DNA of 64,000 nt from Pseudooceanicola algae (GTDB taxonomy: Bacteria; Pseudomonadota; Alphaproteobacteria; Rhodobacterales; Rhodobacteraceae). A model generated the notes under the pieces. The model did not search any database and had not been told where the DNA came from. It saw nothing but the letters and a program-made list of their open reading frames with translations. The stretch's first letter is position 1. Each line of letters opens with the position of its first letter. Below are positions 28,094-57,004 of this stretch, piece by piece. The stretch spans positions 2,266,001-2,330,000 of the forward strand of contig NZ_CP060436.1 in NCBI RefSeq assembly GCF_003590145.2. The letters run 5' to 3'. Position numbers and translations under genes: made by a program.

Positions 28094-28122
28094 GAACGTG
28101 GGCCCCGGCGGGGCCTGCGTTC
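28094..28122. terminator. Bidirectional terminator
   Basis: Stem GAACG..GGCCCC / GGGGCC..CGTTC (11 pairs, interrupted by a TG/TG mismatch) with a 3-nt loop. It lies between the convergent SDR and MarR genes and touches the MarR stop. TTTCTG follows at 28127. Confidence 0.7.
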
Positions 28123-28591
28123 AGGCTTTCTGCTTGCGGCGAATGTCGAGCATGATGGAAATCCCGCGCGCCGCATCTGCCTCTGAGACATCACGAAACA
28201 TCTCGTCGATCCATGTCAGATGCTCTGCGGTCATCTCGTCCATCAGGGCGCGGCCCTTTTCGGTGATCCGCACCAGAAAGGCGCGACGGTCCGAGGCAAG
28301 GTTCTGTCGCTCGACCAGACCTTCGGCCACCAACCGGTCGACCACACCCGTCACATTGCCGTTGGAGACCACGAGGTGCTGGGAAAGCTCGCTCATCTTC
28401 ATGCCTTCGGGCGCGGCATGAAGCGCCGCCAGCACGTCGAACCGGGGCAGCGTCGTTTCATACCCCGACCGCAGCCGTTCGCGCAGCTGGCCTTCGACAC
28501 AGCGCGTGGCCTTCAGCATCTGCAGCCACAACCTCAGCCTGTGTCGGGCCAGACCGTCATCGTTGATTTCATGCCGGGTCTGCTGGTCCAT
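28121..28591 (-). CDS. MarR-family transcriptional regulator
   Basis: A 156-aa regulator. The winged helix covers about 50-120, with LPRFDVLAALHAAPEGMKMSELSQHL, the recognition helix SNGNVTGVVDRLVAEGLVER and the wing LASDRRAFLVRITEKG. I chose ATG 28591 (GGCGGA upstream); an in-frame ATG at 28639 would add 16 residues. It lies downstream of the aromatic operon on the same strand, with its own promoter gap. A TACTTGAAG-type site there suggests autoregulation and control of both flanking operons, possibly by an aryl-CoA ligand. Confidence 0.9.
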   Translation of the reverse strand: MDQQTRHEINDDGLARHRLRLWLQMLKATRCVEGQLRERLRSGYETTLPRFDVLAALHAAPEGMKMSELSQHLVVSNGNVTGVVDRLVAEGLVERQNLASDRRAFLVRITEKGRALMDEMTAEHLTWIDEMFRDVSEADAARGISIMLDIRRKQKA

Positions 28592-28624
28592 GGGTCCGCC
28601 TGTTCCGCAAGTCTGCGTGGAAAT

Positions 28625-28635
28625 TGCTTCAAGTA
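28625..28635 (-). promoter_or_regulatory. TACTTGAAGCA site before the MarR gene
   Basis: The minus strand reads TACTTGAAGCA, ten of eleven bases the same as the palindrome before the cupin gene. It lies 34 bp before the MarR start, in the only AT-rich part of this gap, as expected for an autoregulatory operator. Confidence 0.45.
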
Positions 28636-28723
28636 TCAACCTAAGGCGGCAGAGGTAAAGGAAAAGATGCGAAACCGCAGCAGAATGGGCCAGGGCGGCG
28701 GTCAGCGACGCCGACCCCTTGCA

Positions 28724-29101
28724 TCACAAGAGCTTCCGTGGCGTCCCTTCGGCATCGACCGCGACCATGAGGACGTCAGCCTGAAAGATCTCACGCTGCG
28801 GCTCAGAGGCACCGGCCCAGGCGGAAAGAAGCAGGTTAAAGGAAGTGTTGCCCTTGCGGGTCAGCTCTGCCCGGATCTGGAAATCCTCGCCTGCGCGCAG
28901 AGCATCGCGAAAGGTCAGATCCTTGATCGACAGGATCAGCGCCTCGCCCCCCGAGGCCCGGCGCCCGGCCAGCCCCGCCGCCAGATCAAGCTGTGTCAGC
29001 ATCCAGCCACCGGTCACGGCGCCGCGCGGGGTCACCGCGTCAAGGGGCGCCATGGTCATCAGAACCGGCAAGGCCGCCGTCCCAACCCCGAGGTCAGTCA
29101 T
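28724..29101 (-). CDS. Acyl-CoA thioesterase-like hotdog protein
   Basis: A 125-aa single hotdog-fold protein of the YciA/acyl-CoA thioesterase kind. It has GAVTGGWMLTQLDLAAGLAG in place of the N-terminal helix, followed by SIKDLTFRDALRAGE and a central strand set. It would hydrolyse an aryl- or acyl-CoA to the free acid. Its start overlaps the end of the Rid gene by 8 nt. It ends the five-gene operon headed by the 761-aa monooxygenase/reductase. Confidence 0.8.
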   Translation of the reverse strand: MTDLGVGTAALPVLMTMAPLDAVTPRGAVTGGWMLTQLDLAAGLAGRRASGGEALILSIKDLTFRDALRAGEDFQIRAELTRKGNTSFNLLLSAWAGASEPQREIFQADVLMVAVDAEGTPRKLL

Positions 29102-29507
29102 GTGGAAGGACCGCTGTCGCCTCGATCTCGATCCGGGCTGCGTCCTCCATCAGACCGGTGACCTGAACCACGGCCATGGCGGGAAAGTGGCGGCCGATCA
29201 CCTCGCGGTAGGCGGCCCCGAAAGCGCGCAGATTGTCGAGGTATTCGCGTTTGTCGGTAATGTACCAGGTCAGGCGCACAAGGTGTTCGGGCCGCGCACC
29301 GGCTTCTGCAAGGACAGCCACGATGTTCAACAGGGTCTGGCGGAACTGGCCCGCCATGTCGTGATGCTGCCATTCCTGATTGCCGGTCCAGCCGACCAGC
29401 CCGCCGGTAAAGAGGATGCGGCCCTCGGCCAGAACGCCGTTGGCATAGCCCTTGGCCGGCATCCAGCCATCAGGTTGAAGGAACATGTGCGGGGTCAAAG
29501 CGGTCAT
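29094..29507 (-). CDS. Rid-family protein (enamine/imine deaminase-like)
   Basis: A 137-aa protein of the YjgF/YER057c/UK114 family, usually a trimer that hydrolyses enamines and imines. Family segments: GRILFTGGLVGWTG, FRQTLLNIVAVLAEAGARPEHLVRLTWYITD, and IEIEATAVL at the end. The Arg that defines active RidA (in FPARSCVEV of E. coli) is replaced here by Met (FPAMAVVQV, about 109-117), so it belongs to a non-RidA subgroup. The context fits: the fused enzyme encoded upstream may give a 2-amino-5-oxo-cyclohexene-type product, which is an enamine. This role is inference. Confidence 0.85.
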   Translation of the reverse strand: MTALTPHMFLQPDGWMPAKGYANGVLAEGRILFTGGLVGWTGNQEWQHHDMAGQFRQTLLNIVAVLAEAGARPEHLVRLTWYITDKREYLDNLRAFGAAYREVIGRHFPAMAVVQVTGLMEDAARIEIEATAVLPHD

Positions 29508-29523
29508 CTTCGGGTCTTTCCTG

Positions 29524-29958
29524 TCAGGTATCTGGGGCGTCGAGGTATCGCGACATGGACTGGCGCACGGGGTCCGGCCAGCGGGCAGCGCGGGCGCCGG
29601 ATCCGGAATCGAGGCTGGCGTAAATCACGGTGGCCTCGCCGGTAAAACGAAGTTCGCCGGCGCAGGTACAGCGCAGCGCGAAGCGGGCCGAGGCCCCACC
29701 GATGGCGGCCACCGAAAGCGAGAGATCCAGAAGATCTTCCAACCGCGACGGCGCCTCGAAACGAATGTGGATGTCGCCCATCGGCGTGCCGGTACCTTCG
29801 GTGGCGGCCATGGCCTTCCAACTGACGCCGACTGCATCCGCGAAGAAGCGTTCGATGAGGGCCGAGATCATCTCGAAATAACGGGGATAGAATACGATGC
29901 CCGCCGGGTCGCAGTGATTGAATTCGACCTGACGGCGGATGCTGAAAACCTGGGTCAC
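29524..29958 (-). CDS. 4-hydroxybenzoyl-CoA thioesterase-like protein
   Basis: A 144-aa hotdog thioesterase of the 4HBT class. The active-site motif is FNHCDPAGIVFYPRYFEMI (about 14-32), with Asp17 the expected nucleophile or base. The GTG start at 29958 overlaps the SDR stop (GTGA). It would release an aryl acid from CoA. It lies with a second thioesterase and a Rid gene in the operon of the 761-aa flavoprotein. Confidence 0.87.
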   Translation of the reverse strand: MTQVFSIRRQVEFNHCDPAGIVFYPRYFEMISALIERFFADAVGVSWKAMAATEGTGTPMGDIHIRFEAPSRLEDLLDLSLSVAAIGGASARFALRCTCAGELRFTGEATVIYASLDSGSGARAARWPDPVRQSMSRYLDAPDT

Positions 29959-30698
29959 GTCTCGCCCCCGGAGACGGAGATCGCCTGCCCCGTGACCATA
30001 TCCGACCCTTCCCCGCACAGCCAAAGGACAGCACGCGCCACGTCTTCGGGCGGCACGAGGCGCTGCATCGGGTTGGTGGCTTCCACCGTGGCGCGGGCCT
30101 CTTCGGGGCTGCGGCCGGTCTTGGCAACGATAGTGGCGATCGAGCGTTCGGTCATCTCCGTATCCAGAAAGCCGGGGCAGATGGCGTTGACGGTCACCCC
30201 CTTGCGGGCCTGCTCCAGCGCGACGGACTTCACCATGCCGACCACGCCGTGCTTGGCGGCCGCATAGGGCGCGACATAAGGATACCCTTTCAGCCCGGCG
30301 GTCGAGGCGATGGCGATCAGCCGCCCCCAGGGCTTGCCCTGCATCGCCCGCACGCCCTCCCGCAGGGTCAGGAAGGTGCCGGTCAAATTCACCGAGATCA
30401 TGCGTTCGAACGCGGCAAGTTCCGTCTTGGCGAAAGGCGCACTTGTCGAAGCACCGGCATTGGCCACAACGATATCCGGCGCCGCGTCTGCAACAGCACG
30501 TATCAGCGCCGCTTCGTCCGTCACATCGCAGACAACCGTCCGAATGCCCGGGTGGCATGCGGCGACCGCTTCAAGCGGTTCGATCCGGCGACCGCAGATC
30601 GTGACCTGCGCCCCCTCGCCCGCCAAAAGCGTGGCGATAACCGCCCCGACGCCGGACCCGCCACCGGTCACGAAGGCGCTGCGCCCCTCGAGCATCAT
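29955..30698 (-). CDS. Short-chain dehydrogenase/reductase (SDR)
   Basis: A 247-aa classical SDR. Cofactor motif TGGGSGVG (about 10-17), NAGAS, the Ser in AIASTAG and the YAAAK pair (about 146-150) are present, and PGFLDTEM follows. In aminobenzoyl-CoA gene sets an SDR acts as a 3-hydroxyacyl-CoA type dehydrogenase after the ring reduction, so this is a good candidate step. It overlaps both neighbours by 4 nt. Confidence 0.9.
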   Translation of the reverse strand: MMLEGRSAFVTGGGSGVGAVIATLLAGEGAQVTICGRRIEPLEAVAACHPGIRTVVCDVTDEAALIRAVADAAPDIVVANAGASTSAPFAKTELAAFERMISVNLTGTFLTLREGVRAMQGKPWGRLIAIASTAGLKGYPYVAPYAAAKHGVVGMVKSVALEQARKGVTVNAICPGFLDTEMTERSIATIVAKTGRSPEEARATVEATNPMQRLVPPEDVARAVLWLCGEGSDMVTGQAISVSGGET

Positions 30699-32980
30699 TG
30701 CGCCATGGCCTTTGCCCGTTCGGCAAGTGTGTTGGCCTGCCGCCGCCCCCCTTCGTAGGGCGCGGGCCAGGTCTGTTCAGTGTCTCCCAGGTCGACCGCG
30801 GCATGCAGCGTCCAGTAGGGATCGGCCAGGTGCGGGCGGGCCAGCAGGACAAGATCCGCGCGCCCGGCCATCAGGATCGAATTCACATGGTCCGGCTCAT
30901 AGATATTGCCGGCAACCAGAGTGGGCAGGTCGATTTCATTGCGGACCTGATCCGCGAAGGGCACCTGGAACATACGTCCATAGATCGGCTGCTCGGCCTT
31001 GTCGGTCTGCCCGGAGGACACGTTGATCGCATCGGCGCCGGCCTGCTTGAACAGGGCCGCAATCCTGACCGCATCCTCCGGGGTCACGGCGTCTTCGCCC
31101 ATCCAGTCATGGGCGGAAATCCGGACCGTCATCGGCTTTTCGACGGGCCATTCTGCGCGCATTGCCGCAAAGATCTCCAACGGGAAGCGCATCCGGTTCT
31201 CGAGACTGCCGCCATAGGCATCGCTGCGTTTGTTGGTCACCGGAGAGATGAAGGAGGCCAGAAGATAGCCGTGCGCCGCGTGCATCTCGATCATGTCGAA
31301 ACCGGCCGCATTGGCAGCGCGCGTGCTGGCGATGAACTGGTCGCGAACCATGTCCATGTCGGCGCGGTCCATTTCCTTCGGGATGACGTTGCCCTTCAGC
31401 AGCGGGATCGCGGAGGCCGACAGAAGGTCCCAGTTTTCGCCATCCGGCAGCGCCTTGTCGATCCCGTCCCAGGCAAGCCGGGTCGATCCCTTGCGGCCCG
31501 CATGGCCGATCTGGGCGCAGATCCTTGCCGGGGTTTCGCCATGGACAAAATCGACCAGACGGGCCCATGCGGGCACCTGATCGTCGCCGATACAGGGACA
31601 GCCCGGCGTGATCCTGCCTTCCATGCTGACGCAGAGCATTTCGGTAAAGACCAGACCGGCCCCGCCCTTGGCGCGTTCGGCGTAATGCACGAAATGCCAG
31701 TCGGTCGGCATCCCGTCCTGCGCCTTGTATTGCGCCATGGGCGAAACGACGACGCGGTTCGCAAGCGTCATGTCGCGTAGCGTGAAAGGCGCGAACATCG
31801 GGCTGCGGGCGGAATTGCTGCCCGCCCGCGCCTGAAACCAGGCCTCGGCAGAGGCCAGCCAGGCCGGATCGCGCAGTCGCAGGTTTTCGTGGCTGATCCG
31901 TTGCGACCGGGTCAGCAGGGCATAGGTGAACTGCATCATGTCGAGGGTCAGGTAACGCTCGACCTCCTCGAACCACTGGGTCGAATTGCGTGCGGCCGAA
32001 GTGACCCGCAGCACCTGCAACTTGCGTTCTTCCTGATAGGTCTGAAGGGCCTCCTGCAACGGCTTGCCGGAATTCAGTTCGTCGGCCAGTGCGATGGCGC
32101 TTTCCATCCCCAGCTTGGTCCCCGACCCGATCGAGAAATGCGCCGTGGCCGAGGCATCCCCCAGCAGCACGACATTGTCGAAATACCAGTTCTCACAGGT
32201 CACACGCGGGAACTGGATCCAGGCAGAGCCGCGGATATGGCCCGCGTTGGTCATCAGCGGATGGCCACCGAGGTGACGCGCGAAGATCTTTTCGCACAGC
32301 GCGATGCTGTCTTCCTGGTTCAGGGTGTCGAAACCGAAGGCCTTGTAGACCTCGGGGCCGCACTCCACGATGAAGGTCGCCGTGTCATCGTCGAACTGAT
32401 AGGCATGGGCCCAGATCCAGCCATGATCGGTCTTTTCGAAGATGAAGGTGAAGGCGTCATCGAATTTCTGATGCGTACCAAGCCAGACGAAGTGGTTCCG
32501 CCGCATGTCGATCTCGGGCTTGAAGGCATCCTCGTGGATCTGGCGCGTGCGGGAATTCAGACCATCCGAGGCAACGACAAGGTCGCATTCCGACTTCAGC
32601 TTTTCCAACCCTTCCGGCGTGATCTCGGTTTCATAGGCAAGGGCCACGCCAACCTGCCGCGCGCGGTCCTGCAGAAGCAGCAGCATCTGCTTGCGGCCAA
32701 TCCCGCAGAAGCCGTGACCGCCAGAGGTCATGGCCTCTTGCCCGCGCACGACCTTCACGTCATCCCAATAGGCGAAGTGATCGCGGATCATCTTTTCGCT
32801 GACCGGATCGTTGCCCTCGAAATTCGACATCGTCTCGTCCGAAAGCACGACGCCCCAGCCGAAGGTGTCATCGGTCCGGTTCCGCTCGTAGACCGTGACA
32901 TCATGCGCCGCGTCGCGCAGCTTCATCGAAATTGCGAAGTAAAGGCCGGCGGGGCCTCCGCCCAGTACAGCGATCTTCAT
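30695..32980 (-). CDS. Fused FAD monooxygenase/Old Yellow Enzyme protein (2-aminobenzoyl-CoA or salicylyl-CoA type)
   Basis: A 761-aa two-domain flavoprotein. Residues 1 to about 395 are an aromatic-ring FAD monooxygenase: GGGPAG (7-12), DG near 165 in VVASDGLNSRTR, and GDASATAHFSIGSG around 285. Residues about 398-761 are an Old Yellow Enzyme-like FMN reductase: APFTLRDMTLANRVVVSPM, QIGHAGRKGS, IEMHAAHGYLLASFISP and the C-terminal LVLLARPHLADPYW. This fusion is known in 2-aminobenzoyl-CoA monooxygenase/reductase and in proteins called salicylyl-CoA 5-hydroxylase. The adjacent Rid gene and the isatin hydrolase favour 2-aminobenzoyl-CoA (inference). It heads a five-gene operon. Confidence 0.9.
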   Translation of the reverse strand: MKIAVLGGGPAGLYFAISMKLRDAAHDVTVYERNRTDDTFGWGVVLSDETMSNFEGNDPVSEKMIRDHFAYWDDVKVVRGQEAMTSGGHGFCGIGRKQMLLLLQDRARQVGVALAYETEITPEGLEKLKSECDLVVASDGLNSRTRQIHEDAFKPEIDMRRNHFVWLGTHQKFDDAFTFIFEKTDHGWIWAHAYQFDDDTATFIVECGPEVYKAFGFDTLNQEDSIALCEKIFARHLGGHPLMTNAGHIRGSAWIQFPRVTCENWYFDNVVLLGDASATAHFSIGSGTKLGMESAIALADELNSGKPLQEALQTYQEERKLQVLRVTSAARNSTQWFEEVERYLTLDMMQFTYALLTRSQRISHENLRLRDPAWLASAEAWFQARAGSNSARSPMFAPFTLRDMTLANRVVVSPMAQYKAQDGMPTDWHFVHYAERAKGGAGLVFTEMLCVSMEGRITPGCPCIGDDQVPAWARLVDFVHGETPARICAQIGHAGRKGSTRLAWDGIDKALPDGENWDLLSASAIPLLKGNVIPKEMDRADMDMVRDQFIASTRAANAAGFDMIEMHAAHGYLLASFISPVTNKRSDAYGGSLENRMRFPLEIFAAMRAEWPVEKPMTVRISAHDWMGEDAVTPEDAVRIAALFKQAGADAINVSSGQTDKAEQPIYGRMFQVPFADQVRNEIDLPTLVAGNIYEPDHVNSILMAGRADLVLLARPHLADPYWTLHAAVDLGDTEQTWPAPYEGGRRQANTLAERAKAMAQ

Positions 32981-33029
32981 GATTCAGGTTCCCTGCTTGG
33001 TTTCCCCTCAAAGTATCGATTCGACAAAC

Positions 33030-33040
33030 TACTTCAAGAC
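33030..33040. promoter_or_regulatory. TACTTCAAGAC site before the 761-aa gene
   Basis: Nine of eleven bases match the reverse form of the TACTTGAAGTA palindrome seen at 25860. It lies 50 bp before the flavoprotein start in an AT-rich stretch (33025-33055). It may be the operator through which the MarR protein controls the aromatic operon. Confidence 0.4.
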
Positions 33041-33263
33041 TAAAATAAATATTGCCCCTGAAACCGGGGCTCCCCCCTGCAATCCCTCTAGGTTCGCGCA
33101 TTTTTATTGACCCGAAGTCAGCGCGAGTGACAGGAGTTCTTGACCTGTTGGCGGGATCACATATTCTTTAGACACAAAATACATAGGGACCACCTTCCGC
33201 CTCAATTCCTGGCCTTCATCAGTGGCGCGGGGCGCCGGCCCGACCAATTCAAGAGGACCCGCC

Positions 33264-33692
33264 ATGCCGTTCAAGATATCCAAGCCCATGCGCTTTGGTG
33301 ACTGCGATCTTACAGGGATCGCCTATCACCCGGCCTACCTTTCCATGCTCGTCGATGTAAACGAGGCAATGTTCGCCTCTTTCGGTGTCACCTGGAAGGA
33401 GTTGATGTACGACCGCAAGCTTGGCCTGCCCAGCCTCAAGATGAACATCCTTTTCAAGAAGCCGGCCGTTTACGGCGACACCCTGGACTTTAATGTCCAT
33501 GTGCGCCGCATCGGGAAATCCTCGCTTGACCTTTATACCGTTGTCGAAGTGGACGGAGAGGTCATCTGGACCATCGAGCAACTGATCGTCATGACCTCGA
33601 CCGTCGACCACAAGTCCCACCCCTGGCCTGAAGACTGCCGCCTCGGCCTGACGACATATCTGCACCCCGAACTCCTGACTGACGAGGCCTGA
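33264..33692 (+). CDS. Acyl-CoA thioesterase, 4HBT-like
   Basis: A 142-aa hotdog thioesterase. The active-site part is MRFGDCDLTGIAYHPAYLSMLVDVNE (here about 9-33), with Asp in the GDCDLTGI position. The start at 33264 has AGAGGAC upstream. It is a single gene, divergent from the aromatic operon across 283 bp, and followed by a GC-rich hairpin. It is the third thioesterase within 5 kb, so it probably acts in the same aryl-CoA network. Confidence 0.85.
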   Translation: MPFKISKPMRFGDCDLTGIAYHPAYLSMLVDVNEAMFASFGVTWKELMYDRKLGLPSLKMNILFKKPAVYGDTLDFNVHVRRIGKSSLDLYTVVEVDGEVIWTIEQLIVMTSTVDHKSHPWPEDCRLGLTTYLHPELLTDEA

Positions 33693-34022: not shown

Positions 34023-34715
34023 ATGCAGACAATCATCCAGGCCAAGCCGCTGCCGCTGGCCCAGAAGGTCTACGAAGACCTGCTGGAAGATATCGCGCAG
34101 AACCGCCGCCTTTCCGGAGAGCGCATGATCGAAGCGGCGATCGCCCGGGACCTCGACGTATCCCGGACGCCGGTGCGCGAGGCGCTCAACCGACTTGAAA
34201 ACGATGGGCTGATCCAGAGCGCCCGGCCGGCCGGCTACGTGGTCATCCGCCCCTCGATCGAAGACATCCGCGAGATCTTCCAGATCCGTCGAGCGCTGGA
34301 ACCCGTGGCCTTTGCCTCTGTCGTGGCACGGGCGCAACCGGGCGAAGACCTGACCTTCCTGGGATTGCGGGACGGCATCCGGGATGCAGGGACGCCAACG
34401 GCCTCGGCGATCGCCAACCGGCGGTTCCGGCACTTCTGGCTGTCCCGCACCCCCAACCGGCGGCTGCGCGCGACGCTGGAACGCTATCACCTTCAGGTGC
34501 AACTGGTGCGCGCCGCGACCCTGCATTCCGAACAAGGGCGCAGGGCGGCCACTGCCGGAGCACGCGTGCTTGCCCGCGCCTTCGTGGACCGGGACGCAGA
34601 GGCCGCCCAGGCCGCGATGACAGATTTCGTCGACGCCGCCCTGGCCTTTTTCGAACAGGCCGATGCGGAAGGCACCCTAAGGCCGACGCCGCTTCGCGAT
34701 TGCGGCGGGCAATAA
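34023..34715 (+). CDS. GntR-family transcriptional regulator (FCD type)
   Basis: A 230-aa regulator. The N-terminal winged helix (about 10-75) shows VYEDLLEDIAQNRRLSGERMIEAAIARDLDVSRTPVREALNRLENDGLI in family form (cited here by its key VSRTPVREAL). The C-terminal FCD domain (about 85-215) contains RRALEPVAF and repeated helices with metal-ligand candidates. AAGGGG lies upstream of the ATG. It is the first gene before the TRAP operon, 57 nt from the binding-protein start, and so probably controls it. Confidence 0.9.
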   Translation: MQTIIQAKPLPLAQKVYEDLLEDIAQNRRLSGERMIEAAIARDLDVSRTPVREALNRLENDGLIQSARPAGYVVIRPSIEDIREIFQIRRALEPVAFASVVARAQPGEDLTFLGLRDGIRDAGTPTASAIANRRFRHFWLSRTPNRRLRATLERYHLQVQLVRAATLHSEQGRRAATAGARVLARAFVDRDAEAAQAAMTDFVDAALAFFEQADAEGTLRPTPLRDCGGQ

Positions 34716-34772
34716 TTTCGACGTCACGCAGAGCCGGTCAACGGATGTGACACAACCAACAGTGAGGATATC

Positions 34773-35762
34773 ATGAAAAAAACGTTTCTCTACAGCGGCT
34801 TTGCGGCTGCGATCCTGGGGCTTTCCTCGGTCGCCGCGCAGGCAGAGGACCTGATCCGCGCGATCACCTTCACGCCCGCGCAGGTTTCCTTTGCACGCAA
34901 TTTCCAGGGCTTCGTCGACCTGGTGAATGAACGCGGCGAAGGCATCGTCCAGATCCAGGTCATCGGCGGCCCCGAAACCATCCCGCCAACACGCATGGGC
35001 GAAGCCCAGCAGAACGGCATCGCGGACATGTTCCTGCTGCCCGCCGGTCTTTACCTGAACATTGTCCCCGAAGGCGAAGCCTTTGCCGGTTCCAACCGCG
35101 ACCCGCTGAGCCTGCGCGCCGATGGCGGCATCGAGATGATCAACGACATCTTCCACGAAAAGGCCAATGCCCATGTCCTGGCCCATGTCGATGGCGGGGC
35201 CGGGTTCCACCTGTGGATGACCAAGAAGCCCGCCATCGCGGAAGACGGCCAGCTTGACCTCAACGGCATGCGCCTGCGCGCCGCGCCGCTGTTCAGGGCC
35301 TTCCTCGAGGAACTGGACGCCACCATCGTCGTTCAGCCCGCTGGCGAGGTCTATACCTCTCTTGAACGCGGTGTCGTGGATGGCACCGGCTGGCCGGTCA
35401 CCGGCCTGCGCGATTTCGGCTGGGACAAGTTCGTGAAGTACCGCATCGACCCGGGCTTTTTCCAGACCGACGTCCTGATCAGCATGAACCTCGACAGCTG
35501 GGACGGGCTTTCCCCCGAAGCCAAGGAGATCATCCAGCAGGCCGCGATCGAGCATGAGCAAACCTCCTACGAGGCCAATATCGCGCTGAACGAGGAAGAA
35601 ACCGCGATCATGGCCGAGAACGGCATGGAGACGATCGAGCTGACCGGTGAGCAGCGCGAGCTTTTCCTGACCACGGCCTATGACATTGCCTGGGCCCGCC
35701 TGCAAAGCCGGGATGCCACCCATCATGACGACCTGAAGGCTGTCTTCTTCGAAGACTTCTGA
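34773..35762 (+). CDS. TRAP transporter solute-binding protein (DctP family)
   Basis: A 329-aa periplasmic protein with a signal peptide (KKTFLYSGFAAAILGLSSVAAQA). The key Arg of DctP proteins, which pairs with a ligand carboxylate, is likely in LNGMRLRAAPLFRAF (about 165-180). The remainder has the usual GEVYTSLERGVVDGTGWP segment. It delivers an organic acid to the DctQM permease. The downstream GlcD-type dehydrogenase and HpcH aldolase suggest a hydroxy- or oxo-acid. An 11-bp hairpin follows. Confidence 0.88.
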   Translation: MKKTFLYSGFAAAILGLSSVAAQAEDLIRAITFTPAQVSFARNFQGFVDLVNERGEGIVQIQVIGGPETIPPTRMGEAQQNGIADMFLLPAGLYLNIVPEGEAFAGSNRDPLSLRADGGIEMINDIFHEKANAHVLAHVDGGAGFHLWMTKKPAIAEDGQLDLNGMRLRAAPLFRAFLEELDATIVVQPAGEVYTSLERGVVDGTGWPVTGLRDFGWDKFVKYRIDPGFFQTDVLISMNLDSWDGLSPEAKEIIQQAAIEHEQTSYEANIALNEEETAIMAENGMETIELTGEQRELFLTTAYDIAWARLQSRDATHHDDLKAVFFEDF

Positions 35763-35768
35763 AACCAG

Positions 35769-35802
35769 CCGAAGCGGGCGGCACGGATGCTGCCCGCTTC
35801 GG
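35769..35802 (+). terminator. Attenuator hairpin after the DctP gene
   Basis: A perfect 11-bp stem, CCGAAGCGGGC / GCCCGCTTCGG, with a 12-nt loop, 7 nt after the binding-protein stop. No T-run follows. As in the other importer operons here, it probably limits read-through into the membrane genes or protects the DctP message. Confidence 0.65.
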
Positions 35803-35877
35803 TGATCCCTGCCCCGCCCGATCCGCCGATACCCCCGGAACACCGGGGCCGTGCCCGCATTCGTCAAAGGTCCCGTC

Positions 35878-36390: not shown

Positions 36391-36401
36391 GGCCTTAAAT
36401 C

Positions 36402-37715: not shown

Positions 37716-37759
37716 CCGGCGGGTCGAAAACCCCAACCATACGAAACAAGGAGCACCCC

Positions 37760-46416: not shown

Positions 46417-46426
46417 GGACACGCCC

Positions 46427-47980: not shown

Positions 47981-47983
47981 CCC

Positions 47984-49659: not shown

Positions 49660-51198
49660 ATGAAAGACTTCAGCAAACTCAGCCGTCGCGGTTTTCTCGG
49701 CGCCTCTGCCGCGCTCACGGCGCTGGTCGCCAGTGGTATTCCCGCCATGGCGCAGGATGGCAGCAACCTGACCATCGCCTATAACCTCCCGGTGCAAAGC
49801 TGGGATCCCACCACTGGGCCGGCGGCCGTCAACCCGGCGCTGCAATCGGTCTACCTGGCCGTTTTCGACCGCTTCATCGGGCAGGCGCCGGACCTGTCCT
49901 TTGAACCGGGCCTGCTGACCGACTGGAGCTTCAGCGAGGACAAGTCCACCATCACCATGACCGTCCGCGACGGCGTGAAATGGCACGATGGCACCGATCT
50001 GACCCCGGAAGACGTGGTCTGGTCGCTGGAACGTGCGGCCAGCCCGGACACCGGCAACCCCATGCAATTCGTCTGGGGCAAGATCGGAAACTTTTCGGTC
50101 GACGGCCAGGTGATCACCGCGGATGTGCTGGAATTCGAACCTGCGCTGTTCAAGTGGATGGCCTTCCTGACCGCCTTCGTCCTGCCCAAGGCCTATTACG
50201 AAGAGGTCGGCGCCGAAGGCTTTGAAACCGCCCCGATCGGCACCGGTCCCTACATGGTCGACGCCTTCGAACAGGGGGCCTATGTGCGCCTGAAGGCCTT
50301 CCCCGACTACTGGGGCGAGGCGCCCGAATTCGAGACCGTGACGATCAAGTTCGTCACCGATTCCGCCTCTCGCGTGGCCGAGATCGAATCCGGCAATTCC
50401 GACATCACCACCAATATCCCCTACGAGGAATACGACCGCCTGATCGCCAAGGACGGGCTGTCGGGCGAGGCCGTTCCGATCACCGATATCGGCATGATCT
50501 TCCTGAACGACATCGAGGTGATGACCGACAAGAACGTGCGTCTTGCCGCCCATCATGCCATCGACAAGCAATTGATCATCGACCGCCTTCTGCGCGGCTA
50601 CGGCGTGCCGCTTTCGACCCTCGAGGCCCCCGGCTATGCCGCCTACGACGACAGTATCGTAGTCGAATACGATCCCGAAAAATCCGTGGAATTGCTGGCG
50701 GCCTCCGGCTATTCGACCGACAACCCCGTGACCTTCACCATCCAGACGACCCGTGGCTTCAAGCCCAAGGACTACGAGATGATCCAGGCCATCGTCGGCA
50801 TGTGGCGCAAGGTCGGCATCGAGGCCGAGATCGAAGTCTACGAAATCGCCAAGCATTACGAGCTGCGCGCGACCGATACCCTGGCGCCGGCGGCCTTCTA
50901 CAACTGGGGGAACTCCATCGGCGATCCCTCGACCTCGACCGGGTTCTCGATGTTCGGACCTTCGCCCCACGCGGTCTGGGACACCCAGGACCTGGTGGAA
51001 AAGATCGGCCCGCTGTTCGTCGAAGCCGATGAAGACAAGCGGATCCAGGGCTTCAAGGACGTGTCGAAGTACATCGCGGAAGAGGGCTACGTCATCCCAC
51101 TGCTGCAATACGTGATGCCGATCGTCTATGCCTCGGATCTTGCGGTCACGCCCTATACCTCTGGCGATCTGTTGCCGCAGGCCGTTTCCAAACCCTGA
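49660..51198 (+). CDS. Peptide/opine-type ABC solute-binding protein (SBP_bac_5)
   Basis: A 512-aa periplasmic protein of the OppA/DppA class. ATG 49660 opens a Tat-type signal (SRRGFLGASAALTALVASG, ending AMAQ). The mature part has TDWSFSEDKSTITMTVRDGVKWHDGTDLTPEDVVWSLER in family form (key VKWHDGTDLTPEDV) and APIGTGPYMV. A long extracytoplasmic binding cleft fits peptides or other large ligands. It is followed by a 12-bp hairpin. Position beside the indole/aryl genes suggests import of a related compound (inference). Confidence 0.9.
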   Translation: MKDFSKLSRRGFLGASAALTALVASGIPAMAQDGSNLTIAYNLPVQSWDPTTGPAAVNPALQSVYLAVFDRFIGQAPDLSFEPGLLTDWSFSEDKSTITMTVRDGVKWHDGTDLTPEDVVWSLERAASPDTGNPMQFVWGKIGNFSVDGQVITADVLEFEPALFKWMAFLTAFVLPKAYYEEVGAEGFETAPIGTGPYMVDAFEQGAYVRLKAFPDYWGEAPEFETVTIKFVTDSASRVAEIESGNSDITTNIPYEEYDRLIAKDGLSGEAVPITDIGMIFLNDIEVMTDKNVRLAAHHAIDKQLIIDRLLRGYGVPLSTLEAPGYAAYDDSIVVEYDPEKSVELLAASGYSTDNPVTFTIQTTRGFKPKDYEMIQAIVGMWRKVGIEAEIEVYEIAKHYELRATDTLAPAAFYNWGNSIGDPSTSTGFSMFGPSPHAVWDTQDLVEKIGPLFVEADEDKRIQGFKDVSKYIAEEGYVIPLLQYVMPIVYASDLAVTPYTSGDLLPQAVSKP

Positions 51199-51217
51199 TC
51201 CCCAACGCCCAGGACAT

Positions 51218-51249: not shown

Positions 51250-51270
51250 CCTTAATTTCCCGAGGTTCCC

Positions 51271-52278
51271 ATGCTTCTCAGAACCGTGTTGATCCGGTTG
51301 CTGACCACCGCCATCACCCTTTTCGGTGTGGCTGTCGTGGTCTTTACCCTGGTCCGCGTCGCCCCCGGCAACCCCATTGCCATGATGCTGCCCCCGGGCG
51401 CCACCGAACAGGATATCGCCAATCTCACGGCGCTTTACGGTTTCGACAAGAGCCTTCCTCATCAGTTCGTCATCTGGCTGAGCGGCGTGGTCCAGGGCGA
51501 TTTCGGGACCTCGATCACCCTGCGCCGTCCCGTGTCGGACCTGGTGCTCAGCCGGCTGCCCGCGACGCTGGAACTGTCGGTCATGGCGCTGCTGATCGCC
51601 GTGGCGCTTGGCGGGCTGGTGGCGGTGCTGGGGGCGCGGCGCCGCAATTCCGCGACCGAGGTCGGGCTGGACCTTGGCAGCGGCGCGGTGCTGTCGATCC
51701 CGGATTTCCTCTGGGGGCTGATCTTCGTGCTGCTGTTCGGGGTGCTCTGGCCTGTGCTGTCGATTTCCGGCCGCATAGATCCGCGGATCGCGTTCGATTT
51801 CACCACGAATTACTATTTACTTGAAGGATTGCTGCGCGGGCGCTTCGATGTCGTCGGTTCGACCCTTGGGCATATGCTGATGCCGGCCATGTCGCTGGCC
51901 CTGCCCCTGGCGGCGATGATTGCCCAGCTTCTCAAGCAGAACCTGAAGGAAGAGCTGCTGAAGGATTACACCACGTTGACGCGGGTGCGGGGCTTTACCG
52001 AAACCGCCGTGATCCTGCGCGAGGCGCTGCGCAATGCCGCCCTGCCCACGCTGGCGCTGGTGGGAGTGCAATTCACCTTCCTGATCGGGGGCACGGTGAT
52101 CGTCGAACGGCTTTTCGCCTACGAAGGCCTTGGAAACATGGCCATCGACGCGGTGATCAACCGCGACCTGCCGCTGATCCAGGGCATCGTCATGCTGTTC
52201 GCGGCACTGTTCATCGTGATCAACCTTGCCGTCGATCTTTCCTATACCCTTCTGAACCCGAGGCTTCGTCATGGCTGA
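51271..52278 (+). CDS. DppB/OppB-like ABC importer permease
   Basis: A 335-aa membrane protein with six spans. The first is LLTTAITLFGVAVVVFTLVRVAPGNP, the hallmark start of DppB. The EAA loop reads EELLKDYTTLTRVRGFTETAVILREALRNAALP (key DYTTLTRVRGF). Overlap with the DppC-like gene is 8 nt. It forms the channel with DppC. Confidence 0.92.
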   Translation: MLLRTVLIRLLTTAITLFGVAVVVFTLVRVAPGNPIAMMLPPGATEQDIANLTALYGFDKSLPHQFVIWLSGVVQGDFGTSITLRRPVSDLVLSRLPATLELSVMALLIAVALGGLVAVLGARRRNSATEVGLDLGSGAVLSIPDFLWGLIFVLLFGVLWPVLSISGRIDPRIAFDFTTNYYLLEGLLRGRFDVVGSTLGHMLMPAMSLALPLAAMIAQLLKQNLKEELLKDYTTLTRVRGFTETAVILREALRNAALPTLALVGVQFTFLIGGTVIVERLFAYEGLGNMAIDAVINRDLPLIQGIVMLFAALFIVINLAVDLSYTLLNPRLRHG

Positions 52279-53140
52279 TATCACCGCCGCGCCCCGCCGA
52301 CGCCGCAGCGCGGGCAAGGGGCTGAACCTGCGTCTCTGGCTGCCGCTGAGCTGGATCGTGATCCTGATCTGCGCCGCCGTCTTCGCGCCGCTGGTCGCGC
52401 CGCAGGATCCATTGATGCAGGACCTGATGATGGAGCGCCTGCCGCCCTTCTTCATGCAAGGGGCAGAACCGGGTTTCTGGCTGGGCACCGACAGTCTGGG
52501 GCGCGATGTCCTGTCGCGCATGATCTACGGCGCGCGGATCGCGCTGTTCGTCAGCGTGATCGCCGCCACGACGACCTGCGTCTTCGGCTCCGCGCTCGGC
52601 CTGCTGGCGGGCTACTACGGCGGTTGGTGGGATCGCGTGATCTCGCGGCTGGTCGACATATGGATGGCCTTCCCGCCGGTGCTGTTCGCCGTGCTGCTGG
52701 TGGCGGTCATGGGCACCGGGCTGACGTCGGTCATCGCCGCCATCGCCCTGATCGACTGGACCCGCTTTGCCCGCGTCATCCGGGCCGAAACCATGGTGCA
52801 GGCGCGCATGGACTATGTCGACTCTGCCCGCATCGGCGGGGCCCGGCGTCTGGCCACGCTGGTGACCGAAATCCTGCCGAACGTCCTGCCGACCATCATC
52901 GCCTTGCTGATGCTGGAAATGGGCATCGCCATCATCGTCGAGGCGATCCTGAGCTTCGTGAACCTGTCGATCTCGTCGGACGATCCCACCTGGGGGTCCA
53001 TGATTGCCGAAGGGCGCGGCGCGATCCACTTTGCCTGGTGGGTGCTCCTGTTCCCGCTGATCGCGCTGTTCTTCAGTGTCCTCAGCTTTTCGACCCTGGG
53101 CGAAGGCCTGAAGAAACGTTTCGACCCGGTGCTGCAATGA
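52271..53140 (+). CDS. DppC/OppC-like ABC importer permease
   Basis: A 289-aa permease. It has the typical N-terminal span and WLGTDSLGRDVLSRMIYGARIALFVSV segment (key GTDSLGRDVLSR), and EAA loop MDYVDSARIGGARRLATLVTEILPNVLP (key DSARIGGAR). The stop overlaps the next start (ATGA). Confidence 0.92.
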   Translation: MADITAAPRRRRSAGKGLNLRLWLPLSWIVILICAAVFAPLVAPQDPLMQDLMMERLPPFFMQGAEPGFWLGTDSLGRDVLSRMIYGARIALFVSVIAATTTCVFGSALGLLAGYYGGWWDRVISRLVDIWMAFPPVLFAVLLVAVMGTGLTSVIAAIALIDWTRFARVIRAETMVQARMDYVDSARIGGARRLATLVTEILPNVLPTIIALLMLEMGIAIIVEAILSFVNLSISSDDPTWGSMIAEGRGAIHFAWWVLLFPLIALFFSVLSFSTLGEGLKKRFDPVLQ

Positions 53141-54033
53141 ACGATCAAACCACCTCCCGCCCCGCGCTTGAGATCATCGACCTGTCGATCGCCCTGCCGA
53201 ACGGGGTCCGCCTGCTGCGCGACGTCTCGCTGACGCTGCACCCCGGCGAGGTGCGCGCCCTGGTCGGGGAAAGCGGCGCGGGCAAGTCGATGATCGGCAA
53301 GACGGTGCTGGGCATCCTGCCCGACACGCTGAAACGCAGCCAGGGCGAGATCATCTTGGAAGGCCAGCACCTGAACATGATGACCGCCTGGACCCGCCGC
53401 CAGACGGTGGCCGAGGTCACGGCGCTGATCCCGCAGGACCCGCTGACGGCGCTGAACCCACTGCGCAAGATCGGCCCGCAGATCGTCGATCCGCTGATCC
53501 GAATCCGCGGCTGGGACAAGGGCCGTGCCCGCGCCCGCGCGCTGGAATTGCTGGAGCGCGTGCATATCCGCGACCCCGAGCGTGTCATGCAAAGCTATCC
53601 ACATGAGCTGTCCGGCGGGATGCGCCAGCGCATCCTGATCGCGGCGGCCTTCGCGCCCGCGCCCCGGCTGATCGTCGCGGATGAACCCACCACGGCGCTG
53701 GATGTGACCGTACAGAAGGAGATCCTGAAGCTGATCCGCGAGTTGCAGAAGGAAACCGGCACCGCTGTCCTGTTCGTCACCCATGACATGGGGGTGGTCG
53801 CCAAGATCTCTCAGCAGGTCACGGTGCTTTTCGCGGGCAAGGTGATGGAGGACGCCCCGACGCGGGACATCTTCACCAACCCCGCGCATCCCTATACCCG
53901 CGCGCTGATCGCGGCGACGCCCAGTTCCGCCGATCTCGACCGCCCGTTCAGCCCGGTCCCGCCCGAGCTTATCGCGGATCTGCATGCTCAGGTCGTCCGG
54001 GATGACGCCCTTTGGCAGGGAGGCAAAAGATGA
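53137..54033 (+). CDS. DppD-like ABC importer ATPase
   Basis: A 298-aa ATPase of the dipeptide/nickel class. Walker A GESGAGKS lies near 43-50, the Q-loop in IPQDPLTALNP, signature LSGGMRQR, Walker B LIVADEPTTALD and switch FVTHDMG. The C-terminal oligopeptide-transporter tail (PAHPYTRALIAATPS) is present. ATG 53137 overlaps the DppC stop by 4 nt. The Walker A Ala (GESGAGKS) is a normal variant. Confidence 0.92.
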   Translation: MNDQTTSRPALEIIDLSIALPNGVRLLRDVSLTLHPGEVRALVGESGAGKSMIGKTVLGILPDTLKRSQGEIILEGQHLNMMTAWTRRQTVAEVTALIPQDPLTALNPLRKIGPQIVDPLIRIRGWDKGRARARALELLERVHIRDPERVMQSYPHELSGGMRQRILIAAAFAPAPRLIVADEPTTALDVTVQKEILKLIRELQKETGTAVLFVTHDMGVVAKISQQVTVLFAGKVMEDAPTRDIFTNPAHPYTRALIAATPSSADLDRPFSPVPPELIADLHAQVVRDDALWQGGKR

Positions 54034-54836
54034 CCGCTCTCTTCTCTATCCGTGATCTGCATCTCTCTTTCCCGGATCGGGGCCGCAAGCCGCTGTTCGG
54101 CCCGGCCCCCCGGATCGAGGTCCTGAAGGGCCTGACGCTGGACATTCCCGAAGGCCGGATCACCGGGATCGTCGGGGAATCCGGGTCGGGGAAATCGACT
54201 TTCGGACGGGTCCTCGTGCGTCTGCTCGACCCGGATGCGGGACAGGTGCTGTTTGACGGCAAGGACATCGCCAGCCTCGGCGAACAAGCGCTCCTGCCCC
54301 TGCGCCGCGATCTTCAGATGATCTTTCAGGACCCGATGTCGTCGCTGAACCCGCGCCACAGGGTCTGGCGGCTGATTGCCCAACCGCTCAGGCGTTACGG
54401 GCGCGGCGGCACCAGGGGTCAGGCGATCGAGGCACTGGCCCGCGTCGGCCTGCCCGCCGCCTTCGCGGATCGCTATCCGCACCAGTTGTCCGGTGGCCAG
54501 CGACAGCGGGTCGGCATTGCCCGCGCCATCGCGCTGGAGCCGCGCTTCATCCTGGCGGATGAGATCGTCTCGGGTCTCGACGTGTCCAGCCAGGCACAGG
54601 TGCTGATGCTGCTCAAGAGCCTGGCGCAGGAAATGGGCCTGACCGTGGCCTTCATCAGCCATGATCTTTCGGTAATCCGCCACCTGTGCGACGACGTCAT
54701 CGTGCTGAACCACGGAGAGATCGTCGACGCGGGCCCCGTGGCCGAGGTTTTCGAGAACCCGCGATCCGATGTCACCCGCAAACTGCTTTCGGCGATCCCC
54801 CTGCCGGAAATGGACGATAGCTGGTTCGACGCCTGA
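54030..54836 (+). CDS. DppF-like ABC importer ATPase
   Basis: A 268-aa ATPase. Walker A GESGSGKS (about 50-57), Q-loop IFQDPMSSLNPRHRV, signature LSGGQRQRVGIARA, Walker B FILADEIVSGLD and switch FISHDLSV. The start at 54030 overlaps the DppD stop (ATGA), with GGGAGG upstream. It pairs with DppD and ends the importer operon. Only 46 nt separate it from the end of the convergent LysR gene. Confidence 0.92.
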   Translation: MTALFSIRDLHLSFPDRGRKPLFGPAPRIEVLKGLTLDIPEGRITGIVGESGSGKSTFGRVLVRLLDPDAGQVLFDGKDIASLGEQALLPLRRDLQMIFQDPMSSLNPRHRVWRLIAQPLRRYGRGGTRGQAIEALARVGLPAAFADRYPHQLSGGQRQRVGIARAIALEPRFILADEIVSGLDVSSQAQVLMLLKSLAQEMGLTVAFISHDLSVIRHLCDDVIVLNHGEIVDAGPVAEVFENPRSDVTRKLLSAIPLPEMDDSWFDA

Positions 54837-54882
54837 GGCGCCTTGCGGGTCAGGTTGCAGCTGAGTCCTTGGCGTGGGTGGC

Positions 54883-55797
54883 TCAATCCTGCAGGGTCTG
54901 CGCCAGCAGGCCGTGCAGCCAGATCAGCCCCGGATCGCTGGCAAAGCTGTCGTGGATCCAGAAGTTCACATCGAAATCCGGCACGTCGAAGGGCAGTTCG
55001 CAGAACCCGAATTCGCCATGCCGGTTCATCAGCGCGCAGACCGAATAGGGAAAGAGCGCGACGAAATCGGTGCGCCGGATGATTTCCGGCACGATGGTGA
55101 AATGATCTACTTGAGCCACGACCCTGTAGGGAATGCCAAGATCCGCGATCCTTTCCCGCGCCATGCGATAGCCGGTGGCGTCCTGCCCCACATCCAGGAA
55201 GGACAGCCCCGAAAAGGCATCTGGCGTCCAGTCCCGCGCCTCTAGCGGATGGCCGCTGCGGAACAGGCAGACGATCCTGTCCCGCATCACCGGCCAGCCA
55301 AGGCAGCTTGTCTCGGGAAGGCGCGGTTGATAGCCGATGGCCGCATCCACCTGCCCCGTCCGCAGGGCCGAGGCGATATCGTCCGGCGCGATCCGCGATG
55401 ACCGGACCCGGACATCTGGCGCCACGGTCTGAAGCGCGGCCAGCAGGCGCGGCAGGATGACGAATTCGCCGGTATCGGTCATCGCCACGCGGAACTGGCG
55501 CGCGGCGGTGGCGGGATCGAACTGCGTGGTCGCCTGCATCGTGTCCGCCACCAGACGCAGCGATTCCTCGAAGGCTGAACGCAGGGAAGCAGCCATCTGC
55601 GTCGGCGCCATCCCGTTGCCCGAACGGACGAACAGCGGGTCGCCGAATTCATCGCGCAACCGGCGCAGGGCATGGCTGACGGCGGGCTGGGTCAGGCCCA
55701 GCCTTCCCGCCGCGATGGTCAGGTTGCCGCTGTCCCAGACCGCCAGGAACACCTTTATCAGGTTCAGATCGAACCGCAGAAGGGTCTTGTTGTCCAT
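54883..55797 (-). CDS. LysR-family transcriptional regulator
   Basis: A 304-aa LysR regulator. The winged helix (1-62) shows FDLNLIKVFLAVWDSGNLTIAAGRLGLTQPAVSHALRRLRDEF in part (key AAGRLGLTQPAVSHALRRL). The substrate-binding domain begins near 90 (RQFRVAMTDTGEFV), as in the NodD/NahR/SyrM-like group that senses aromatic inducers. It lies 22 nt after the group D monooxygenase gene on the same strand, so the two are cotranscribed. Confidence 0.92.
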   Translation of the reverse strand: MDNKTLLRFDLNLIKVFLAVWDSGNLTIAAGRLGLTQPAVSHALRRLRDEFGDPLFVRSGNGMAPTQMAASLRSAFEESLRLVADTMQATTQFDPATAARQFRVAMTDTGEFVILPRLLAALQTVAPDVRVRSSRIAPDDIASALRTGQVDAAIGYQPRLPETSCLGWPVMRDRIVCLFRSGHPLEARDWTPDAFSGLSFLDVGQDATGYRMARERIADLGIPYRVVAQVDHFTIVPEIIRRTDFVALFPYSVCALMNRHGEFGFCELPFDVPDFDVNFWIHDSFASDPGLIWLHGLLAQTLQD

Positions 55798-55819
55798 GCC
55801 GCCGCCCCCTTTTCCCGGC

Positions 55820-57004
55820 TCAGGGATAGCCGCGCGGCGCCTCGAGCCCCGCGAGCACCCGACCGGCGTTTTCCAGGATCATTTCCGTCACCGCGGCATG
55901 TTGCGTCACCACCATGGCATCGCGCAGGTATCGCTGCATCGGGCTCTTGCGGCTGATGACCCCCATGCCGGCGATCCGATAGGCCTGCTGGACGACCTCG
56001 GCCCCCTTGAGCGCAGCATTGGTGGCGCTGAGCCGCAGCATGTTGTTCTGCTCCAGCGACACAGGATCCCCCTTCAGCAGGCTGTCCCAGGCCGCTTCGG
56101 CGGCTTCGTAGAAAAAGGCCCGCGCACCGCGCAACCTGGCTTCGCATTCCGCGATCCCGGACAGGAAATAGGGCCGGTCGCACAGCCGTGCATGGCCCAC
56201 GCCGATCTTGGCCGCGCCCGAAACGGATTTCGCCTGTTCGATCGCAGCGCGGGCAAGGCCAAGGTTGCAGGCCGCATGGACCTGGGCCTGATATGCCATG
56301 GCCGGATACCTGTAGAGCGGTTCGTCGATGACGCCGGGCGCGCCGCGTTCGCAGATCCACATGTCGGGGTAAAACTTGTCGGTGACCAAAGTGTCGTGAC
56401 TGCCGGTGCCCTGCATCCCGGAAACATCCCAGGTCTCGATGATCTCGACCTCGCAGGCGGGTGATACGCCCATCATCACGACCGGCGGCGCATCCGGTTG
56501 CGCGCCCTGTGGATCGCCCGCGATGCCGACGCCGATCCAGTCCGCGCCCTTGCAGCCCGAGGCGAATTTCCAGCGCCCGGACACTTTCCAGCCGCCCTCG
56601 ACCCGCGTCGCCTTCTGCACCGGGTGCAGCCCTCCGGCAAAGACCTGATCGGGACCCGTTGCGTAGATGACCGCCTGCGCTTCTTCGCAAAGCGCGGCCG
56701 TGTAGGTGTTGGCCGAGCCGAAGGCCGAAACCCAGGCGGCGGATCCATCTACCGTCCCGATCTTGTCCACCATCTTCAGAAAATGATGTGGGGCCATGGC
56801 GTCGCCACCGAACTTCTGCGGCGTGGCCGACCGGAAGATCCGCGCCGCCTTCATCAGATCGACAATATCCTGCGGGATATGGCGCAGGGTCTCGAAGGTC
56901 TCGCGCCGCGCCTCGATCACCTCGAGCAGATGTACGAATTCGGGGGTCTCGGTCAGCCGGTCGAAATCCACGGCGGGAGCGGCCAGCTTTTCAACATATG
57001 TCAT
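55820..57004 (-). CDS. Group D flavin-dependent monooxygenase (acyl-CoA dehydrogenase fold; IacA/IifC/HsaA-like)
   Basis: A 394-aa protein with the acyl-CoA dehydrogenase fold. GWKVSGRWKFASGCKGADWIGVG (about 130-152, key GRWKFASGC) and GTGSHDTLV are typical of two-component flavin monooxygenases such as HsaA, DszC, IacA and IifC rather than of true acyl-CoA dehydrogenases. No catalytic Glu motif of the dehydrogenases is obvious. AAGGAAG precedes ATG 57004. Such enzymes need reduced flavin from a separate reductase; the flavin reductase gene at 40449 is the only candidate in the window. Oxidation of an indole or other aryl ring fits the context (inference). Confidence 0.83.
   Translation of the reverse strand: MTYVEKLAAPAVDFDRLTETPEFVHLLEVIEARRETFETLRHIPQDIVDLMKAARIFRSATPQKFGGDAMAPHHFLKMVDKIGTVDGSAAWVSAFGSANTYTAALCEEAQAVIYATGPDQVFAGGLHPVQKATRVEGGWKVSGRWKFASGCKGADWIGVGIAGDPQGAQPDAPPVVMMGVSPACEVEIIETWDVSGMQGTGSHDTLVTDKFYPDMWICERGAPGVIDEPLYRYPAMAYQAQVHAACNLGLARAAIEQAKSVSGAAKIGVGHARLCDRPYFLSGIAECEARLRGARAFFYEAAEAAWDSLLKGDPVSLEQNNMLRLSATNAALKGAEVVQQAYRIAGMGVISRKSPMQRYLRDAMVVTQHAAVTEMILENAGRVLAGLEAPRGYP

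Follow-up and report, generated by a model that had tools for sequence, protein, structure and literature searches.

Isatin is an oxidised compound related to indole and to the plant hormone auxin. We analysed a 64,000-nucleotide stretch of Pseudooceanicola algae DNA (NZ_CP060436.1, 2,266,001-2,330,000; hereafter the window, in whose coordinates positions are given; genome labelled G000), which carries a predicted isatin hydrolase, the oxidoreductase subunits IorA and IorB, and a fused flavoenzyme of the 2-aminobenzoyl-coenzyme A (CoA) monooxygenase/reductase (ACMR) type. Described systems with which it can be compared include auxin-degrading iad-like loci, the 2-aminobenzoyl-CoA pathway and the iif/ind indole cluster. 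In iad-like loci the genes iorB/iadB and iotA/iadA are exclusive markers and the route runs to anthranilate (PMC9613470), for which nine genes, iadC-K2, suffice in Variovorax (PMC12633357). A compound C8H7NO3, the formula of isatinic acid (PMC8383072), accumulates strongly only in iadC-K2 overexpression strains (PMC12633357). No reaction is assigned to iadA/iadB in the extracts of PMC9613470 and PMC12633357, nor is either gene mentioned in the main text of the latter. For the 2-aminobenzoyl-CoA pathway the product of ACMR has been given, and anthraniloyl-CoA and a C7H8O4 thioester were reported in anthranilate-grown Arthrobacter (PMC3534580). The iif/ind cluster brings together a two-component oxygenase, a flavin reductase, a short-chain dehydrogenase (SDR) and a cofactor-independent oxygenase, and a review raises as questions whether indole breakdown truly passes through isatin and which role isatin hydrolase has there (PMC6221969).

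A sequence-only reading of positions 28121-57004 had proposed a route from tryptophan-derived indoles to a CoA-ester path. Family scans confirmed every gene that it named, including three hotdog thioesterases, two MarR regulators and one LysR regulator, and added two CrtI/CrtO-like oxidoreductases, an Opp/Dpp-type transporter, a GntR/TRAP/GlcD/HpaI group and a cupin/FAA-hydrolase/SDR operon. The outline of that route held, in that a co-occurring set of genes joins isatin chemistry to the 2-aminobenzoyl-CoA path, but the wiring we arrive at is different. We consider it likely that the cluster breaks down isatin, or something oxidised to isatin, into the 2-aminobenzoyl-CoA path without passing through free anthranilate.

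The isatin hydrolase/IorAB and ACMR operons

The core of the locus is the isatin hydrolase, two CrtO genes, a MarR regulator, IorA, IorB and an Opp transporter together with the ACMR operon and the cupin/FAA-hydrolase/SDR operon. The isatin half lies on the forward strand and begins with the B-type isatin hydrolase gene (41444-42238, ATG start; PF04199), whose best solved relative is isatin hydrolase B (4j0n, 396.7 bits over 263 residues). Its HSGTHYDAPHH stretch fits the HxG[T/A]HxDxPxH metal motif of the family (PMC6117287) and it is homologous to LaIHB over its full length, so that hydrolysis of isatin by the product is a prediction supported by homology. Next comes CrtO1 (42249-43814; Amino_oxidase 8.1e-15; crtI_fam 110.9 bits, under cut-off), a CrtI/CrtO-like flavin adenine dinucleotide (FAD) oxidoreductase with weak matches among solved structures, mostly to carotenoid desaturases, followed by the MarR regulator of this operon, MarRb (43811-44257; MarR_2 9.4e-14). 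IorA (44272-46416; TPP_enzyme_C 8.9e-18) is the thiamine pyrophosphate (TPP)-binding and Fe-S subunit and IorB (about 46427-47980, with a candidate start codon; NF006179 661.6 bits, cut-off 348) a POR-type subunit with DUF6537. The second CrtI/CrtO-like oxidoreductase, CrtO2 (47984-49528; Amino_oxidase 2.5e-15), precedes the substrate-binding protein of an Opp/Dpp-type ABC transporter (49660-51198; SBP_bac_5 1.5e-77) and that transporter's two permeases and two ATPases (51271-54836; BPD_transp_1, ABC_tran).

IorA scores 292.8 bits against TIGR03336, under the cut-off of 650.9, and its profile gave no match among solved structures. Its Fe-S cysteines and GDG motif are conserved in 15 aligned sequences, and the TPP domain with GDG, the Fe-S cysteines and the POR subunit together identify an indolepyruvate oxidoreductase (IOR)-type 2-oxoacid:ferredoxin oxidoreductase (the GDG, Rieske and AMP-ligase patterns used in our scans are ones that we take to mark these motifs). 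A fused IOR is encoded elsewhere in the genome (PRK13030, 1416.8 bits, G000:C1:1156178-1159546), and the split IorAB of the window is therefore an additional enzyme.

In the scheme that we propose the Opp-type transporter would import the substrate, which the two CrtI/CrtO-like flavoproteins would probably oxidise to isatin; this is the weakest step, for which both are candidates because they travel with the isatin hydrolase. Isatin hydrolase would convert isatin and water to isatinate. Isatinate is 2-aminophenylglyoxylate, an alpha-keto acid, and the TPP/Fe-S 2-oxoacid oxidoreductase class forms acyl-CoA. Co-occurrence, enzyme class and chemistry thus point to isatinate as the substrate of IorAB, which would decarboxylate it oxidatively, isatinate and CoA giving 2-aminobenzoyl-CoA, CO2 and a reduced acceptor. 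No proposal of such a step by IorAB was found in titles, opening lines of abstracts or passages of the openly licensed PMC papers searched.

The ACMR gene itself (30695-32980, reverse strand; FAD_binding_3 and Oxidored_FMN) scores 1202.8 bits, cut-off 1078, against NF006101, the salicylyl-CoA 5-hydroxylase/oxidoreductase family, and homology supports a predicted ACMR reaction type, the sequence not separating a 2-aminobenzoyl-CoA from a salicylyl-CoA substrate. On the same strand lie SDRb (29955-30698; adh_short_C2 1.9e-48), which adjoins ACMR in relatives, hotdog thioesterase 2 (29524-29958, GTG start, frame set from a homologue; 4HBT_2 7.1e-10; 52-58% identity to two relatives), a Rid-family protein (29094-29507; PF01042 2.4e-18), hotdog thioesterase 1 (28724-29101; 4HBT 4.1e-8) and, beside the operon, the MarR regulator MarRa (28121-28639; PF12802 1.3e-12), also found near ACMR in relatives. 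Hotdog thioesterase 3 (33222-33692; 4HBT_2 3.9e-10) is on the forward strand and has an 85% homologue adjoining ACMR in two loci, L047 and L048. Starting to the left of the region covered by the sequence-only reading, the forward-strand cupin/FAA-hydrolase/SDR operon (25863-28084) encodes a cupin-domain protein (25863-26369; Cupin_2 8e-11) of a single small domain with 73-84% identity to four aligned relatives, an FAA-family hydrolase (26436-27278; PF01557 2.4e-71), perhaps the C-C hydrolase of a diketone intermediate, and SDRa (27275-28084, candidate start codon; adh_short_C2 6.9e-60). The nearest solved relative of the FAA hydrolase is 2,4-diketo-3-deoxyrhamnonate hydrolase (8gsr, 326.6 bits), and the cupin gene adjoins ACMR genes in relatives. 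The operon as a whole adjoins ACMR in several genera, at the place where ligase-type ACMR loci carry ECH and acyl-CoA dehydrogenase genes.

Rid would be a fitting deaminase for the enamine that ACMR forms, and SDRb, Rid, the thioesterases and perhaps the FAA hydrolase and SDRa would finish the breakdown. MarRb and MarRa are likely repressors of the isatin/IorAB half and the ACMR half respectively.

Co-occurrence across genomes and a proposed ligase swap

We searched 292 genomes of the window's order, of which 50 have an IorB match at E ≤ 1e-60; 45 of these are strong, and five lying outside the 45 (G008, G052, G142, G204, G224) have weak matches of 36-40%. Isatin hydrolase (counted at E ≤ 1e-50) is present in 43 of the 292. 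All but one of these belong to the strong-IorB group, which makes 42 of 45 there against 1 of 247 elsewhere (Fisher 5e-46, kinship ignored here and in the tests below); the lone genome outside the group is G224, with its weak IorB match. ACMR is present in 119 genomes, 44 of the 45 and 75 of the 247 (Fisher 7e-19). Counting in the weak-IorB genomes gives 43/50 versus 0/242 for isatin hydrolase and 45/50 versus 74/242 for ACMR. We also sampled 239 genomes of a second order for IorB and ACMR, starting from a Mesorhizobium genome (G299). There, ACMR is present in 36 of 37 IorB genomes versus 41 of 202 others (P 5e-20); three of the 37 (G299, G303, G332) had already come up when named genomes were scanned with an alignment of IorA. 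ACMR was present in all 48 named IorA genomes searched, drawn from 50 of the best 80 of the 588 confirmed places in that scan, and among them are two Bradyrhizobium genomes and a Pseudovibrio genome that carry Rieske auxin-type loci.

The best 80 IorA loci are mostly from Rhodobacterales and Hyphomicrobiales. Within about 10 kb of IorA, in neighbourhoods some of which end at contig edges and with identity thresholds for gene labels of our own choosing, homologues of MarRb occur in 67 of the 80, isatin hydrolase in 58, CrtO1 and CrtO2 in 42 each (isatin hydrolase also being there in 41 and 42) and the Opp binding protein in 41; isatin hydrolase, both CrtO genes and the transporter binding protein are found together in 38. 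Of the 45 strong-IorB genomes, 38 have isatin hydrolase no more than 30 kb from IorB. In three genomes (G223, G157, G084) the operons for ACMR, for SDR/FAA/cupin and for isatin hydrolase to IorAB are contiguous; in G157 neither CrtO gene nor the Opp transporter is found at this place, where TRAP genes are present.

The 2-aminobenzoyl-CoA used by ACMR is normally supplied by a ligase. With the ligase beside ACMR in G020 as query, an ACMR-linked ligase was found in 116 of the 292 genomes, all 116 of them with ACMR (a 37% match in G280 was left outside this count). Four such ligases have TIGR02262 as their best family at 363.5-369.8 bits, just below cut-off; a fifth that was scored, from locus L054, is of another type and is kept out of these four. 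The genome search for an anthranilate-CoA ligase that the sequence-only reading had suggested found none of the ACMR-linked type in P. algae at E ≤ 1e-90, the best TIGR02262 score being 180.5 bits; absence is judged from TIGR02262 and the homologue search, as the AMP-ligase pattern missed at least one ligase (G117, inside L054). Only G000, G084 and G157 among the 119 ACMR genomes are without such a ligase, and all three have IorAB. The ligase is present in all 75 ACMR genomes lacking strong IorB, and in the best 16 of these 75, whose loci were fetched, an AMP-ligase lies inside the same 20 kb as ACMR in every case. G168 has cupin, FAA hydrolase, SDR, MarR, Rid, SDR and ACMR as in the window with the ligase present and no IorAB, while in Alloyangia pacifica and A. 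mangrovi a single cluster contains the IorAB module, ligase and ACMR, and G117 has both IorAB and ligase near ACMR. This distribution around ACMR is the pattern expected of two alternative makers of one thioester. That a missing ligase and a missing isatinate-to-anthranilate step split the pathway, one of two options in the earlier reading, is not supported: a ligase of the ACMR type was indeed found nowhere in the genome, but neither step would be needed if IorAB makes 2-aminobenzoyl-CoA from isatinate.

A number of observations weigh against this interpretation. The counts are uncorrected for kinship, the 45 strong-IorB genomes representing 32 genera, and there are exceptions, namely three strong-IorB genomes without isatin hydrolase, one without ACMR, and G363 of the second order, also without ACMR. 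ACMR lies within about 10 kb of IorA in just 21 of the best 80 loci (20 of these 21 with isatin hydrolase, 6 with ligase), and less than 30 kb from IorB in just 15 of 45 genomes and 13 of 37 in the second order. The ligase is also present in 41 of the 45 IorB genomes, making IorAB mostly an addition and not a replacement, and the strict ligase swap rests on three genomes. The NCBI family name of the fused enzyme is salicylyl-CoA 5-hydroxylase. In Variovorax iadC-K2 alone fully restores anthranilate formation, indicating another way from isatinate to anthranilate there, and the accumulation of C8H7NO3 comes from overexpression strains (PMC12633357).

Rival readings and genes outside the core

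IorAB could take isatinate and the thioesterases hydrolyse the thioester at once to anthranilate, ACMR being fed otherwise, which we regard as unlikely. Three thioesterases in the cluster and the reported anthranilate end product of iad loci (PMC9613470, PMC12633357) speak for such an outcome. However, no ACMR-linked ligase was found in the P. algae genome, G084 or G157, and anthranilate could therefore not re-enter ACMR by that route. It is quite improbable that IorAB is the ordinary IOR of tryptophan breakdown, making indoleacetyl-CoA as the sequence-only reading had it, among coincidental neighbours; although the IorA and IorB family names agree with this and the enzyme class accepts arylpyruvates, the partner of IorAB is isatin hydrolase (42/45 versus 1/247), the co-occurrence extends to ACMR and the genome has a separate fused IOR. 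A salicylyl-CoA 5-hydroxylase acting on salicylate-like compounds via gentisate, as the NF006101 name and the neighbouring cupin and FAA hydrolase might suggest, is very improbable and is rejected on genes that indicate an amino substrate (isatin hydrolase and Rid), on the 326.6 bits of the FAA hydrolase with a sugar-acid diketone hydrolase versus 95.8 and 108 bits with fumarylpyruvate and maleylpyruvate hydrolases, and on the cupin being one small domain.

The route from isatin to 2-aminobenzoyl-CoA leaves several genes of the region aside. We judged the GntR, TRAP DctPQM, GlcD-like and HpaI-like genes (34023-40400, forward strand) and the flavin reductase (40449-41045, forward strand) to be outside the core, and LysR (54883-55797, reverse strand) to form a separate unit with the group D-type monooxygenase gene (55820-57004, reverse strand; Acyl-CoA_dh_2; best NCBIfam HsaA, 147.3 bits, cut-off 450). 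Homologues at 40% or more near IorA in the best 80 loci number 10 for DctM, 2 for HpaI, 1 each for GlcD and the flavin reductase and 0 for GntR, and none was found for the group D monooxygenase. In 20 stretches mapped for gene order from 16 of the IorB genomes of the window's order there were no GlcD, HpaI, flavin reductase, LysR or group D genes at matching length, with the exception of one 26% LysR match. A close (78%) group D homologue occurs in one other of the 292 genomes, beside LysR, with no IorB, ACMR or isatin hydrolase matches there. The group D and flavin reductase genes, which the sequence-only reading had placed in the pathway, are about 15 kb apart on opposite strands. We rejected as a pathway member the group D monooxygenase, which is not conserved with the isatin/ACMR set, and likewise the flavin reductase and the GlcD and HpaI genes on the low counts given above. 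The TRAP transporter is set aside less certainly, DctM at 44% or more being near IorAB in 5 of the 16 mapped genomes.

The GntR/TRAP/GlcD/HpaI genes at 34023-40400 resemble a separate unit for hydroxy-acid uptake and breakdown between the halves of the cluster. Elsewhere in the genome, a second group D-type gene (38% identical) adjoins a Rieske oxygenase gene (G000:C1:1667238-1669416). Further out in the window are a sigma-70-family (ECF-like) factor accompanied by an RskA-type anti-sigma gene (17584-19604) and a DeoR regulator together with two parts of a sugar-type ABC transporter, its binding protein and permease (20065-24168). On the other side, 58330-63996 contains a tRNA-Arg gene and, after it, genes for a TniQ-domain protein and a large SNF2/helicase-type protein. 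The GC content of this stretch is 0.59 versus 0.61-0.66 elsewhere, and it may mark one end of an integrated element.

Comparison with auxin-degradation and 2-aminobenzoyl-CoA loci

The window contains the iad marker genes iotA/iorB (iadA/iadB). It resembles the iad-like auxin loci of Variovorax, Bradyrhizobium and Achromobacter in the hallmark pair iorA/iorB, in MarR control and in isatin/isatinic acid chemistry (PMC9613470, PMC12633357), and the IadI of iad loci, annotated as kynurenine formamidase (PMC12633357), is of the same isatin hydrolase/kynurenine formamidase type as the window's gene. It differs from iad loci in that neither Rieske IadCDE nor an IadF-type ligase or thiolase turned up among the window genes scanned, where CrtI/CrtO-like flavoproteins and an Opp transporter are present in their place; a search of the whole genome for Rieske IadDE gave at best a relative 32% identical over part of its length (120.9 bits).

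Rieske auxin-type genes lie near IorA in 3 of the best 80 loci, and the IorA of the Rieske-bearing loci L185, L194 and L167 is 64-70% identical to that of the window. In G199 a stretch of about 23 kb contains ACMR and its helpers along with IorAB and Rieske auxin-type genes, the ligase being about 260 kb away. In a tree of 41 IorA sequences the six from Rieske-bearing loci (L167, L185 and L194 by homology, L059 by Pfam, L055 and L064 from the same homology cluster) do not group, at least five changes being forced by well-supported branches, a pattern to be expected if different upper pathways feed one common lower step. From the gene order, iadA/iadB would lie outside the iadC-K2 piece (PMC12633357). 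The build-up of C8H7NO3 fits a missing isatinate-consuming step, although the same data indicate anthranilate formation in the absence of IadAB. IadA and IadB of auxin-degradation loci may carry out the isatinate step too.

A broader proposal, to which we give somewhat less than even weight, is of a widespread alphaproteobacterial route in which an imported indole-type compound would be taken to isatin by the two CrtO enzymes without an obvious oxygenase, and IorAB would go on to form 2-aminobenzoyl-CoA, saving the ATP of the ligase and gaining low-potential electrons; IadA/IadB would perform the same step, and the iad route may end in 2-aminobenzoyl-CoA and not in anthranilate. Conversion of isatinate by IorAB would fill a step without an assigned enzyme and suggest a job for iadA/iadB, which are marker genes of root-protecting auxin-degradation loci, and would put the 2-aminobenzoyl-CoA pathway downstream of the breakdown of isatin and auxin in both marine and root bacteria.

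Phenylglyoxylate oxidoreductase converts phenylglyoxylate to benzoyl-CoA and differs from IorAB in subunit make-up; the reaction type proposed for IorAB is alike, from an aryl alpha-keto acid and CoA to an aroyl-CoA, with an amino-substituted substrate. The predicted hydrolase is like isatin hydrolase B of Labrenzia aggregata (4j0n; family in PMC6117287) in whole-length homology and metal motif. The layout of the iif/ind cluster was not encountered in the window, where the group D gene and flavin reductase are apart and not conserved with the set. In common with the 2-aminobenzoyl-CoA pathway and the ACMR of Azoarcus evansii and Arthrobacter Rue61a (PMC3534580) the locus has a fused monooxygenase/reductase, and it shares SDR, MarR and often Rid with the ligase-type ACMR loci of its order. 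It differs from the latter in that no ACMR-linked ligase was found in the genome and no ECH or acyl-CoA dehydrogenase was seen in the cluster, which has the cupin/FAA/SDR operon instead; of the abm-type pathway the fused ACMR is present and a 2-aminobenzoate-CoA ligase was not found in the genome. The locus is best described neither as an iad locus, since a Rieske enzyme is absent from it, nor as a usual ligase-fed ACMR cluster, but as a variant in which IorAB would link isatin hydrolysis to the 2-aminobenzoyl-CoA path.

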